Virus record (IMG/VR): IMGVR_UViG_3300029266_001422
Location: 1-35,652 of that record
Strand: one strand, 5' to 3'
Source of the DNA: a virus
DNA: 35,652 nt
Position numbers and translations under genes: made by a program
The notes under the pieces: model-generated
Database searches by the model: none
What the model was told of the DNA's origin: nothing
What the model saw: the letters and a program-made list of their open reading frames with translations, nothing else
Shown here: positions 5,324-33,851 of the stretch, piece after piece
How the letters are laid out: each line of letters starts with the position of its first letter
Position numbering within the stretch: position 1 is the first letter of the stretch

Positions 5324-5851
5324 GTGACGGTATATAAGAACGCAGCGCACTGCATAGCAAGGTGCATGAGCATCGAGACCAACGATGGCACGGCCAAGTC
5401 AGGATGGCAGATGCGCTATCAGGCCGGCTTCCCAGAAACCCCCGGTGAAGGTTCTGGCCTGAGTGCCGAGGAAAGGCTCACTCAGGACGCCATGACCCGC
5501 GCCATGCTGCACAGGGAGCTAACAGACCTGCAGTGGAACGTGATTGTGGCCAAGTACAGCATCAATGACTTTGAGGTGGCTGACGCGGTGCGCTGGCTGA
5601 TCCCTCGGGTGGAGTCACCGGCGCATCGGCTATTCGTGACCAAGGCCGTGACAGCTTGGGCAATCCCGCGCCGCCTGCCGGAAGGGTTCTATGTGCTGCA
5701 TAGCTGGGATGCGGACGGCACTCCAGATCGCACGCTGAGAGGCTGGAGGCAGAAGGTGAACCGGTGGCTCGAAGAGGGTGTGAACGCAGCGTATTCGAGG
5801 GCTGAGCAGGCATTGCTGGATAATGGGTTGCTGATCGACAAGGCGGCGTAA
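5324..5851 (+). CDS. Unknown protein at the place of a Q-type antiterminator
   Basis: The reading frame is open from 5219, but GTG 5324 follows GAGGGCGG and clears the upstream gene, giving 175 residues. An ATG at 5366 is another option. The conserved-looking part is AMLHRELTDLQWNVIVAKYS, followed by VADAVRWLIPRVESPAHRLF and VTKAVTAWAIPRRLP. A Trp-rich C-terminus follows. I recall similar unnamed proteins in Pseudomonas phages at this position, the last gene of the early operon before the late promoter region, where lambda has Q. There is no zinc finger and no clear antiterminator motif. A role in late control is inference from position only. Confidence 0.6.
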   Translation: MTVYKNAAHCIARCMSIETNDGTAKSGWQMRYQAGFPETPGEGSGLSAEERLTQDAMTRAMLHRELTDLQWNVIVAKYSINDFEVADAVRWLIPRVESPAHRLFVTKAVTAWAIPRRLPEGFYVLHSWDADGTPDRTLRGWRQKVNRWLEEGVNAAYSRAEQALLDNGLLIDKAA

Positions 5852-5876
5852 CCCGACGAACGGTATCAATCTCTTC

Positions 5877-5905
5877 TGGACAGGCGCAACGATTGCGCAT
5901 ATAGT
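5877..5905 (+). promoter_or_regulatory. Strong sigma70 promoter with palindrome in its spacer
   Basis: The -35 box TGGACA (5877-5882) and the -10 box TATAGT (5900-5905) are exactly 17 bp apart, each with one mismatch to consensus. The spacer holds a perfect dyad GCGCAA-CGA-TTGCGC (5884-5898), well placed for a repressor that blocks polymerase. The first gene starts 49 bp past the -10 box. The unit downstream ends with an Aca1-like protein, a family known to repress its own acr promoter at inverted repeats, so this dyad is the natural candidate operator. Confidence 0.78.
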
Positions 5906-5953
5906 TCATACATGCCCAGCGAGAAACGCAGGGCGAACCCAAGGAGATACACC

Positions 5954-6142
5954 ATGATCCGCCCAAGCAAGCAAAAAGCACAGCAAGCCGCTCTGACCGA
6001 AACCCACAAAGCCGCGCTGGCAGAACTGGAAGCTCGCCGCCACGAAGAAGGTCATGCCGCCCGTGTTGACGCATTCAACGCAATGATCACCGCTGACCTT
6101 GGCGCCGAGAATGTCGGCTTCATCGTTCGCAGCTACAACTGA
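5954..6142 (+). CDS. Candidate anti-CRISPR protein 1 (62 aa)
   Basis: A 62-residue protein starting at ATG 5954 after AAGGAG (5941-5946), the first gene behind the promoter at 5877. An upstream in-frame ATG at 5912 would lie within the likely leader and lacks a ribosome site. The sequence begins with a long basic, Ala- and Gln-rich helix (KQKAQQAALTETHKAALAEL), then ARVDAFNAMITADLGAENVG. No known family was recognised. It is listed as a candidate anti-CRISPR only because of context: a tiny protein in a unit that ends with an Aca1-like regulator. The coding call is much firmer than the functional one. Confidence 0.7.
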   Translation: MIRPSKQKAQQAALTETHKAALAELEARRHEEGHAARVDAFNAMITADLGAENVGFIVRSYN

Positions 6143-6151
6143 GGTCGGACT

Positions 6152-6322
6152 ATGAAAACCGCACAAGACATAATTGATCTGATCAAAGAAGCCGGCGCTG
6201 AAAATGCGAAAGAGATCCGAGAGACCCTGGAAGATGGTGCGGCCCTGGCTTCGCTTGGCATTACCGACGAAGATCAAGAGGCTGTCGAAGTAGCCCATGA
6301 TAGCGTCAACCGTGAAGCCTGA
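6152..6322 (+). CDS. Candidate anti-CRISPR protein 2 (56 aa, acidic)
   Basis: A 56-residue, strongly acidic protein from ATG 6152, nine bases after the previous stop, ending at TGA 6320-6322. It reads MKTAQDIIDLIKEAGAENAK at the start and continues with EIRETLEDGAALASLGITDE; it is likely helical. The acidic surface is typical of several known small anti-CRISPRs that mimic DNA or bind basic Cascade surfaces, though many unrelated small proteins are acidic too. It overlaps the Aca1-like gene by 26 bases, so the two are probably coupled in translation. I do not recognise it as any named Acr. Acr function is inferred from neighbourhood. Confidence 0.7.
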   Translation: MKTAQDIIDLIKEAGAENAKEIRETLEDGAALASLGITDEDQEAVEVAHDSVNREA

Positions 6323-6521
6323 CGCCTCCAATCACAACCCTGACCCCGCATACCTGCGGGGCTTGAGGGAGCGGGCCGGACTATCACAGGCAGCGCTTGC
6401 CGAGCGGCTTGCCATATCCCGACGCATGATCCAGTACTACGAGGCGGAAGAAGGCGAGCCCAGCCACCGGACAGCGCCGTACTTGTATCAATTCGCGCTG
6501 GAGCGATTAGCAAACAGTTGA
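6297..6521 (+). CDS. aca1: Aca1-like anti-CRISPR-associated regulator
   Basis: A 74-residue helix-turn-helix protein. It closely resembles Aca1 of Pseudomonas phages such as JBD30 as I recall that sequence. Shared features in order are the N-terminal PDASNHNPDP, YLRGL, an AG(I/L)SQ turn, a YY pair in the recognition region, and the ending APYxxQFALExLAN. The helix-turn-helix lies at about residues 22-50 (RERAGLSQAALAERLAISRR). Aca proteins bind inverted repeats in the acr promoter and shut it down after early expression. Here the gene is last in a three-gene unit with its own promoter, palindromic operator and terminator, exactly the known acr-aca layout. Its start overlaps the previous gene and has little ribosome site of its own, fitting coupled, low-level synthesis. 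Confidence 0.85.
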   Translation: MIASTVKPDASNHNPDPAYLRGLRERAGLSQAALAERLAISRRMIQYYEAEEGEPSHRTAPYLYQFALERLANS

Positions 6522-6571
6522 CAGCCGAGCCAACTGGCCGCAGGATGTACCAATATGCGGTTTTGCCGCTC

Positions 6572-6602
6572 AAAAAGCCCTGTCCTTGTGACGGGGCTTT
6601 TT
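6572..6602 (+). terminator. Strong intrinsic terminator after the aca1-like gene
   Basis: A 13-bp stem (6572-6584 with 6590-6602, one G-T pair) has a five-base loop and ends in five T; the 5' A-run makes it nearly symmetric. It closes the unit begun by the promoter at 5877, so the acr-aca genes form a separate transcript. If the late transcript also starts upstream, it must be antiterminated here. Confidence 0.85.
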
Positions 6603-6658
6603 CGTTTCCAGCAGGCGAAAGACAGAAAGACCCTCCTGCACATCCCGAGGACTCTGAA

Positions 6659-6898
6659 ATGTCTCAACGCATGCGCTGCAAAATGACCTGTCATTCCGTC
6701 ACCCCAAACGAGCATAGCGCCGGCAAGCTCTGCACTGTTCGGCTGGGTGCGGTCTATTCAGAAGTCAAAACCTCCGACGATTACATTTACGGCCAGTACA
6801 CGCCATACGGCGATTTCACGGCCGGGATCGTCACAGAGGTAGCCGAGAAGATGGAAGTGGGTAAAGCCTATTATCTGGACATCTTCCCAGCAGAGTAG
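6659..6898 (+). CDS. Conserved-looking phage protein of unknown function
   Basis: A 79-residue protein starting at ATG 6659, eight bases after GAGG (6647-6650). The longer open frame from 6518 runs through the terminator and is not used. The pattern MRCKMTCHSVT, then TVRLGAVYS, YGQYTPYGDFTAG and KAYYLDIFPAE recalls a small phage family I have seen near lysis genes, without a known function. It lies alone between two intrinsic terminators (6572-6602 and 6936-6959). It may belong to the late leader, or could be a small independently expressed gene; no clear promoter was found in the 56 bases before it. Confidence 0.72.
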   Translation: MSQRMRCKMTCHSVTPNEHSAGKLCTVRLGAVYSEVKTSDDYIYGQYTPYGDFTAGIVTEVAEKMEVGKAYYLDIFPAE

Positions 6899-6935
6899 AA
6901 ACATGAAATCCCCAGCACAGTGAGCCTATGCTTTT

Positions 6936-6959
6936 GCCGCTCTCCATTGCGGCTTTTTT
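6936..6959 (+). terminator. Intrinsic terminator before the holin gene
   Basis: GCCGC (6936-6940) pairs with GCGGC (6949-6953) around an eight-base loop, followed by six T (6954-6959). The stem is short, but the T-run is good. It separates the 79-residue protein from the lysis cassette. Confidence 0.7.
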
Positions 6960-7046
6960 ATTCCCTTTTCCGGCCATCCACCACGCCTCCGCTTAAAGCA
7001 GGCCGTGACAGTGCGCGTGGCCGGGATCTAACCCTAAGGACGCTTT

Positions 7047-32136: not shown

Positions 32137-32323
32137 GGCCATCCTCCGGGTAACTCCGCATTCCTGTGATACCCGAATCAAGATCGATCCGGATCTGCTT
32201 TACCGTGCGGGCCAGCGCTTCAAGATCCTGACCTGCGTATACCTCAGACGGCACGCCAGACAGGACCGCTACCGGCTTGCCGTCTGAGTCAGTGCCGAAG
32301 GTGGCTGTTAGTTGTGGGGTCAT
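32129..32323 (-). CDS. Small protein of unknown function (64 aa)
   Basis: From ATG 32323 in a four-base overlap with the methyltransferase stop; it ends eight bases into the next gene. [20 protein letters not shown] and EALARTVKQIRIDL suggest a small alpha-beta fold. No family was recognised. Confidence 0.62.
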   Translation of the reverse strand: MTPQLTATFGTDSDGKPVAVLSGVPSEVYAGQDLEALARTVKQIRIDLDSGITGMRSYPEDGHE

Positions 32324-33432
32324 TGGGGTGCCTCTAAGTACGATTCGATGAAGACTTGCGCCGCTTGGGCATTGATTGCATTGCCGTAACCGCGCAGTCG
32401 TCCCACTCTGGCGGCAGCCCCATCAACCAGCGGGAATGTGCCGGGTTCAACTGGCCTCCACTTGCCATCCCGGCAGAAGAGCCAATCAGCATCTGACCAG
32501 AAGCCGTTAACCGGGCCGGCTGATCCGGCTTGCAGCAATCCACTGTCTTTCGGCTGCTGTCGTTGTTGCCCGCTGCGTTGTTCCCGTTCTGGGCTGGGGT
32601 GCCTGCCATTGGGGTGGGCCAGCCTGCCAGATACGCCTGCCGCGGCAGTTGGTCGTTCCGGTCCTTTCCGTCCCGTTGCGCCACCATCCCGGGAGTGTCC
32701 TTGTGATCCCGGGATGTCGGTGTGGTCCACCCCGACAAGCAAGCGGCCGCCGCCAGGTCCGGCCCATGATTGCGCATCGCTTCCGCAAGGCCGCCCTCTA
32801 ATGTCCGAACACCCTTGTCCGCCAATGCCGCTGTCGGAGTCGGCCACGCTGACAGCTGCGCCGAGGTGTGCAAGGCCATTCCACCTTGCCTGTTTGCCGA
32901 GTTTCCCGGCCCATTCGTGTCGGTGGCTTTCGGAGTCGGCCAGCCAGTAGAGTCGGTCGCGGATATGCGGCGCACCGACGCCCGCAGACGGGAACGGGAC
33001 AGCCCCGAAGGCGTAACCCATGGCTTCCAGGTCAGCGTGTACAAGGTCGACCCAAGGCTCGACAGCTTTGCTTGCAACCTGTTCTCCAAAGATGACTGCA
33101 GGCTTGCACTGCTCGATGAGCCAAGCGAACGAGGGCCAGAGGTGGCGCTCATCATCAAACCCGCCGCTTTTGCCTGCCGCGCTGAAAGGCTGGCAGGGGC
33201 AACTGCCGGTCCATACAGGCAAGTCATCTGGCCACCCTGCTCGACGAAGAGCGAGGGACCAGACACCAACGCCTGCAAAGAAGTGGCACTGGGTAAACTC
33301 TGCAATTTCGTCAGGGATGACATCTTCGATACTCCTTTCGTCCACGATGCCGGGCGCTATGTGCCCGGCCTTGATGAGATCGCGAAGCCACTGGGCCGCG
33401 AACGGGTCGATCTCGTTGTAATAGGCGGTCAT
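32320..33432 (-). CDS. DNA C5-cytosine methyltransferase
   Basis: A 370-residue enzyme from ATG 33432, which overlaps the endonuclease gene stop. Motifs are clear: I ([14 protein letters not shown], about 49-62), IV with the catalytic Cys80 ([13 protein letters not shown]), VI (IFGEQV, with EQV in place of ENV), VIII (IRDRLYW, about 147) and X ([11 protein letters not shown] near the end). The stretch between motifs VIII and IX is a variable target recognition region of low-complexity type ([17 protein letters not shown]). It methylates cytosine in DNA, most likely to protect the phage from host restriction or to mark its DNA. A second long frame is open through most of the gene (see the entry at 32334). 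Confidence 0.92.
32334..33227 (-). CDS. Overprinted gene inside the methyltransferase (WPTP-repeat protein)
   Basis: A 297-residue frame on the same strand, shifted from the methyltransferase frame and almost fully within it. The suggested start is the ATG at 33227 (MTCLYGPAV); the open frame reaches 33323. It is not a random shadow. [20 protein letters not shown] then [18 protein letters not shown], repeated GWPTP/AWPTPT units, and [19 protein letters not shown] near the end match a family I recall in many phages. There it accompanies, overlaps or is fused to cytosine methyltransferases. Its function is unknown to me. Two proteins would thus be made from one DNA segment. Translation signals for the inner start are modest. 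Confidence 0.68.
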
Positions 33433-33851
33433 GGGCTGATCCCCAGGTACTCCATGGCTTTGGCGCGCCATTCAAGGTCATCCCAGCCGCCAAGCCTGAT
33501 ATTGCATTTGTGGCATAGCAGGCCTCGGACTTGGCCCGTGTTGTGGCAGTGATCAACGCAGGGGCGCTTCAAGGCGATGGTGCAGATCGCGCACCGTCCT
33601 GCCTGGGCGATAAGTGCGTCGTGATACTTCTCCATGGTGAGTCGGTAGCGTCCCGCCATGTGCCACTTGATCTTGTTCGCCGCCGAGTACTCTCGCTTAC
33701 GCTTAGCCCGGAGCATGGTGTTCGTGCATGGCTTACACCAACTGGCTCGGCCATCACTGGCTTTGCCGGAGCGGTGATATTCAGTTAAATGCTTCCTCTC
33801 CCTGCATTTACTGCAAAGCTTTGCCGGCACCGAGCCGAAGGTTAATGTCAT
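33429..33851 (-). CDS. Endonuclease VII-like HNH nuclease
   Basis: A 140-residue protein from ATG 33851, seven bases after GAGG. The N-terminal zinc knuckle is CSKCRERKHLTEYHRSG with CKPC. The catalytic part has CAICTIALKRPCVDHCHNTG and VRGLLCHKCNIRLGG, which is the recombination endonuclease VII pattern: two CxxC pairs around D-H-C-H. T4 endonuclease VII resolves branched DNA before packaging; many phages carry such stand-alone copies. It overlaps the methyltransferase start by four bases. Confidence 0.88.
   Translation of the reverse strand: MTLTFGSVPAKLCSKCRERKHLTEYHRSGKASDGRASWCKPCTNTMLRAKRKREYSAANKIKWHMAGRYRLTMEKYHDALIAQAGRCAICTIALKRPCVDHCHNTGQVRGLLCHKCNIRLGGWDDLEWRAKAMEYLGISP

Follow-up and report, generated by a model that had tools for sequence, protein, structure and literature searches.

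Does the compact plus-strand transcription unit spanning positions 5853–6605 of the viral contig IMGVR_UViG_3300029266_001422 (35,652 nucleotides, hereafter termed the window) encode inhibitors of host immunity, as its resemblance to the anti-CRISPR operons of Pseudomonas phages would imply? The first-pass annotation had read it as an acr-acr-aca unit, that is, two small proteins followed by the regulator Aca1. The most likely answer is that the cassette joins the acr-aca1 operons as a new member and encodes one or two new candidate families of anti-CRISPR, or other anti-defence, proteins; the operon type is already known, and it is the payload families that appear to be undescribed. The carrier is a lambda/D3-like temperate phage of a Pseudomonas-type host, with an antirepressor gene (Ant, phrog_63) in its early region at 701–1405 and a DNA methyltransferase gene, possibly serving counter-restriction, on the minus strand at 32320–33471 (phrog_363, E = 3e-89).

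Inspection of the unit located each of the elements initially claimed, namely a promoter of its own, small proteins of 62 and 56 residues and a strong terminator (Table 1). The aca1 homologue is the last gene, downstream of the two small open reading frames with which it shares the operon, and the proposed layout gained further backing from the operator, the leader, a mosaic pattern of exchange and the fact that ORF2 recurs among Aca1 operons, each of which is considered below.

Table 1. Features of the cassette, by position in the window.
Feature	Positions	Strand	Remarks
11-bp motif CCGACGAACGG	5853–5863	+	5' of promoter; candidate cassette edge or recombination site
Promoter	5877–5905	+	-35 TGGACA 5877–5882; 17-bp spacer; -10 TATAGT 5900–5905
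Putative Aca1 operator AGGCGCAACGATTGCGCAT	5882–5900	+	19-bp imperfect palindrome within the -35/-10 spacer
Leader mRNA hairpin GCCC-A-GCG-AGAAA-CGC-A-GGGC	5914–5934	+	Predicted fold
Shine-Dalgarno AAGGAG of ORF1	5941–5946	+	7 nt before ORF1 ATG
ORF1, 62 aa, candidate anti-CRISPR/anti-defence protein	5954–6142	+	94% homologue heads another Aca1 cassette
ORF2, 56 aa, acidic 'LEDG' family, candidate anti-CRISPR/anti-defence protein	6152–6322	+	Family recurs beside aca1 or other HTH genes
aca1 homologue, HTH repressor, probably 69 aa from GTG 6312	6312–6521	+	ORF opens at ATG 6297
Intrinsic terminator	6572–6602	+	Folds at -19 kcal/mol, z -3.8

Searches with the 6297–6521 protein confirmed the claimed relationship to Aca1, with significant matches to chains from Aca1 crystal structures (7vjn, 7c0g and 7fa3; E = 6e-20 to 1e-19, over 67 of 74 residues), to PHROG 3865 (E = 5e-22) and to 130 phage records, all but one of them named Pseudomonas phages and each less than 60% identical (54–59% among the 60 of the 130 matches listed); the homology extends over the whole of this small HTH protein. 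The claimed length of 74 residues stood only in so far as the reading frame does open at ATG 6297. Translation most likely starts at GTG 6312, giving 69 residues, because relatives begin M-KPDASNHNPDP and the nearest cassette relative, designated L015 (IMGVR_UViG_3300030202_004216), has a GTG at that point and does not conserve the ATG. Three arginines of Aca1, R33, R34 and R44, serve as DNA contacts, R44 being a key residue among them; the regulator keeps R44, although R33 and R34 are replaced, and because of these replacements we go only so far as to infer binding to its divergent operator. The regulators of the window and of a second cassette, L002 (IMGVR_UViG_2778261610_000004), share SRR(M/L)IQYYEA where SDRVMRYYLS is common and also share a GCGC-type operator, a pairing that agrees with co-evolution of repressor and site.

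The promoter, close to consensus, is the sole sigma-70-like site in 5800–7000 (10 of 12 matches, with 0.4 such sites expected), and its spacer is occupied by AGGCGCAACGATTGCGCAT, in which seven of the nine half-site pairs match. Comparison of 14 promoters in all placed this inverted repeat within the core promoter of its own operon and centred like the other operators, the best palindrome lying at approximately the same distance from the CATGCC leader in nearly all other aca1 operons compared; those of BUCT566 and L051 are weak, and TC7 has two copies, of which the stronger is further upstream. Inverted repeats inside core promoters are reported to mediate Aca repression (PMC9410906), and the JBD30 counterpart of the palindrome is the published Aca1 probe (PMC9410881); by analogy with relatives that have been studied, the regulator would repress its own synthesis. 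The operator-like site occurs once in the window, and Aca1 should therefore control its own operon only. The same layout of promoter and leader is common to JBD30 (AcrIF1), BUCT566 (AcrIF2), L069 (AcrIF3, 90%), L133 (AcrIF2-like, 57%) and L002 (AcrIF5 homologue, E = 1e-7).

Transcription is predicted to start near 5911–5912, which places the 5' end of the mRNA about 2 nt ahead of the leader hairpin beginning at 5914. Other aca1 leaders fold as GCC-A-GCC-loop-GGC-GA-GGC; the third inner stem pair is G-C in the window and L002 and C-G in the others, equivalent to one compensatory change, the loop sequence varies freely, and in L005, alone among ten leaders, the outer stem is partly lost. A 5'-terminal hairpin was recorded in the leaders of the window (5914–5934), L002, L003, L004, L015, L051, L133, JBD30 (L032), L044, L014 and L043. 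The ORF2-family operons of Aeromonas phage phiA005 and of an A. caviae plasmid have leaders of similar plan in other letters (GGU-GA-GGC-loop-GCC-RA-GCC or close), as does a Shewanella plasmid gene for the type of extra domain described below for L015. Taken together, these comparisons, which include few independent changes, suggest that the 5'-terminal structure has a role, whether in stabilising the mRNA or as an RNA-level target for the regulator, the former being put forward because 5'-terminal stem-loops are known to affect mRNA stability; the hairpin could also be conserved in part as a point of exchange. It does not belong to a known Rfam family, since a search of 5800–6700 returned nothing above threshold, and the leader pattern was not found in 369 genomes of one class, a sample not centred on Pseudomonas. 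A conserved leader peptide from ATG 5912 was considered and rejected, the frame relative to the first gene differing between operons.

The window cassette lies between a phrog_3412 gene, at the antiterminator position, and a holin gene, and these flanking genes put it in a place matching that of the L015 cassette, which is flanked by a Q-like antiterminator gene and a holin gene and is encoded on the strand opposite to that of its neighbours. In L053 and L054, where the phrog_3412 proteins are respectively 81% and 78% identical to that of the window, no aca1 or ORF2-family gene was found nearby; L069 has a phrog_3412 relative behind which, on the other strand, are acrIF3 (90% to JBD93 AcrF3) and aca1. 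Compared along its length, the cassette resembles L002 over the promoter (85% identity) and the leader's 5' half (95%) but L015 over the leader's 3' half (96%), ORF1 (89%) and ORF2 (75%); the regulator protein is 68% identical to that of L002 and 60% to that of L015. On these alignments the cassette is a mosaic, with promoter, operator and regulator of one type and the payload of another. Given an L002-like promoter and regulator combined with an L015-like payload, operator and repressor therefore appear to have been kept together and the payload swapped, exchange having probably taken place within the leader and the start of aca1, both of which are conserved.

The 11-bp motif CCGACGAACGG, present as a single copy in the window, precedes the leader by 48–72 bases in six cassettes, in some of them forward and in others reversed, and the 369 kb of loci compared contain no further exact copy (approximately 0.2 expected by chance). 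Sites were noted at window 5853–5863, L002:280, L003:4693, L015:4887, L034:2134, L041:8338 and L133:400, the last being reversed and in a locus found by searching for this motif. A 15-bp stretch, CCGACGAACGGTATC, is exactly inverted between the window and L015. The motif is possibly a recombination site, a cassette edge or an activator site, and both this invertible element and the conserved leader hairpin may be unreported, as far as the open-licence literature shows.

Neither small protein had been recognised at the outset as a named Acr, and at the sequence level this holds, searches of PDB, Pfam, NCBIfam, PHROGs, PADLOC and the annotated phages (50,697 genomes) having linked neither of them to a named Acr family. 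Since many Acrs belong to no known family at the time of their discovery, the lack of such homology does not exclude the function. ORF1 gave no match in PDB, Pfam, NCBIfam or PADLOC, no significant PHROG and none among the 50,697 phage genomes; IMG/VR holds one relative, 94% identical, which is the first gene of the Aca1 cassette in the 48.9-kb contig L015, where the surrounding genes otherwise differ from those of the window. Its predicted model was poor (pLDDT 70, pTM 0.38). Small genes directly before aca1 in other loci are likewise candidate Acrs (L003:4786–5001, L005:4783–5004, L051:3290–3514 and the first genes of L036 and L040), and those of L003, L005 and L051 matched no curated NCBIfam family.

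Equivalent searches with ORF2 gave no match in Pfam, NCBIfam, PADLOC or PDB, no significant PHROG, and one match among the 50,697 phage genomes, in phiA005 (E = 7e-4). A profile built from four members was used to find others, and thereby defined a family of small, acidic proteins with the consensus LEDGxALxxLGxTDEDQxxVExAH, in which 12 residues (L, E, D, G, A, L, G, D, D, Q, V and E) are invariant in seven members; the six members measured have net charges of -9 to -17 and pI values of 4.05–4.23, that of the window being net -10. Most AcrIC proteins are acidic (PMC7913775). The family occurs in three Aca1 operons with differing partners. In the window ORF2 ends at the start of aca1 after 56 residues, and in L015 the homologue (79% over 53 residues) is fused to about 68 further residues, giving 121 in all, before aca1; the third operon, L051, consists of the leader, an ORF2-family gene (72 aa), an unrelated 74-aa gene and aca1. 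The ORF2-family genes of phiA005 and of the A. caviae plasmid each overlap or abut a small non-Aca1 HTH gene. Short stand-alone forms (59–72 aa) are present in L050, L051, phiA005 and A. caviae, and L049 has a long form with a C-terminal domain of the kind seen in L015. That domain was located at L015:5360–5565, L049:3180–3360 and L043:2992–3204, fused in two phages and alone in the Shewanella plasmid (38%, E = 5e-5). To judge by these arrangements, the partners of the ORF2-family domain would be interchangeable.

The predicted model of ORF2 consists of four helices (mean pLDDT 94), its nearest structural neighbour being an uncharacterised phage protein, A0A8S5R153 (42% identity, TM 0.76, E = 0.01), and a fold search returned no significant PDB match. 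Three other resemblances were discounted: E. coli YmgB (the best VIA-align result: Z 6.0, rmsd 2.5, 50 residues) is within chance for helical bundles, the FtsZ matches of the profile (hmmsearch, E = 0.07) were weak and taken as chance, and a relation to AcrIE4 received an hhalign probability of 0.1 against the L037 protein, which we take to be AcrIE4. Association of one payload with several unrelated Aca-type regulators is a pattern on record for known Acrs such as AcrIF17, which pairs with different Acas (PMC9410906). A tentative extension, which we regard as doubtful, is that LEDG constitutes a new and widely distributed acidic anti-defence domain, acquired time and again by different HTH-autoregulated cassettes and fused to interchangeable partners, and that the conserved 5' hairpin of aca1 operons functions as an RNA element, either stabilising the mRNA or offering Aca a second target at the RNA level, which acr operons have in common even where their Aca-type regulators are unrelated.

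With regard to function, we consider it rather probable that at least one of ORF1 and ORF2 is an Acr, an estimate based on the published base rate, the presence of two payload genes, the close operon context and the recurrence of the family. We hold with similar confidence that the cassette is an autoregulated counter-defence moron in which ORF1 and/or ORF2 inhibit host immunity, mainly type I CRISPR-Cas being expected; CRISPR inhibition, its type and its mechanism are proposed here by association. Upon infection, with Aca1 still absent, the strong sigma-70 promoter would fire and an mRNA capped by the 5' hairpin would direct synthesis of ORF1 and ORF2. As the product of the last gene, Aca1 would then accumulate, dimerise on the spacer palindrome and shut the promoter, thereby keeping late transcription undisturbed. 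The target of ORF1 and/or ORF2 would be a host defence complex, in all likelihood type I CRISPR-Cas, which they would bind and so inhibit; the strong acidity of ORF2 would be compatible with blocking the Cascade complex from DNA.

Besides the Aca1 homology, the shared layout of promoter and leader, the recurrence of the ORF2 family and the acidity of the payload, the acr reading is favoured by the identical order of the payload in L015, an otherwise different phage in which the cassette is on the other strand and also beside Q and holin genes, and by the acrIF3-aca1 pair behind the phrog_3412 relative in L069. Counting against it, only a minority of the 27 aca1- or aca4-linked candidates of Leon et al. 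were I-C inhibitors (six, with one more gene active against I-E only; PMC7913775), Aca-like genes are also encountered where no known acr gene is present (PMC9410906), neither payload protein was linked to a known Acr by sequence, nor the ORF2 model by fold, the ORF2 domain is also found in longer proteins away from aca1 (L049), and two of the three DNA-contact arginines of Aca1 are replaced in the regulator.

In what we judge to be an unlikely, though still the most serious, alternative, an Aca1-controlled moron acts on a non-CRISPR defence (restriction, CBASS, Thoeris or similar) or on the host in some other manner, only the regulatory chassis being acr-like. Anti-defence genes of different kinds cluster together, as one published account reports (PMC7648647), neither ORF1 nor ORF2 resembles any Acr in PDB, and the ORF2 family spans genera (Pseudomonas-type phages, an Aeromonas phage and plasmid, other phages) as well as regulators, which would suit a broad target; however, the aca1 operons inspected that have identifiable payloads carry AcrIF1, AcrIF2, AcrIF3 or AcrIF5-like proteins. 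It is improbable that ORF1 and/or ORF2 are decayed or inactive passengers, ORF2 having lost its C-terminal domain and the operon being perhaps partly inactive. The disparity in length between the ORF2 proteins of the window and L015 would be consistent with such decay, but the existence of stand-alone short forms, and of the extra domain by itself in the Shewanella plasmid, identifies the short ORF2 as a normal architecture; moreover, its frame is open, its start and Shine-Dalgarno sequence are intact and its key residues are conserved. That the HTH protein regulates another phage circuit and simply resembles Aca1 is very improbable: PHROG 3865-like HTH genes do occur in many phages beside unrelated neighbours (L007, L008 and L017), but the regulator retains its nearly full-length identity of some 54–59% (among the matches listed) and its operon-final position, and the palindrome, the only one of its type in the window, is correctly placed in the promoter of the regulator's own operon.

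On the preferred acr-aca1 reading, the cassette contributes two compact candidate inhibitors of undescribed families, one of these families being found beside several regulators; if confirmed, the payloads would enlarge the set of CRISPR off-switches. It also indicates that phages may exchange acr payloads without parting an operator from its matching repressor, and that the conserved 5' mRNA hairpin of aca1 operons may provide a second layer of control or stability.

Of known systems, the acrIF1-aca1 operon of JBD30 and the related acrIF2- and acrIF3-aca1 operons resemble the window cassette in their Aca1-family last gene, spacer-filling palindrome, CATGCC hairpin leader and one or few small genes in front. 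They differ in that their payloads are unrelated in sequence to ORF1 and ORF2, in their operator half-sites and Aca1 recognition region, from which those of the window have diverged, and in location, which is among the head genes of a Mu-like phage as opposed to the gap between late regulator and holin genes in a lambda/D3-like phage. L002 has the closest regulator, promoter, operator and 5' leader (68% for the regulator, 85–95% for the others), but carries another gene before aca1, an uncharacterised candidate of 131 aa at L002:395–790, and an AcrIF5 homologue after it at L002:1021–1254 (E = 1e-7 to 7eqg). L015 shares the payload order (ORF1 94%, ORF2 79%) and the Q/holin location, and differs in the extra ORF2 domain of approximately 68 residues, a regulator of another Aca1 subgroup and a cassette strand opposite to that of its neighbours. 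Further afield, gp12-gp13 of Aeromonas phage phiA005 and QSO25200-QSO25201 of A. caviae plasmid pSS332-218k present the same order of an acidic ORF2-family protein followed by a small HTH gene, behind a 5' hairpin leader, although in both the HTH protein falls outside the Aca1 family and the leader sequence is unlike that of the window.
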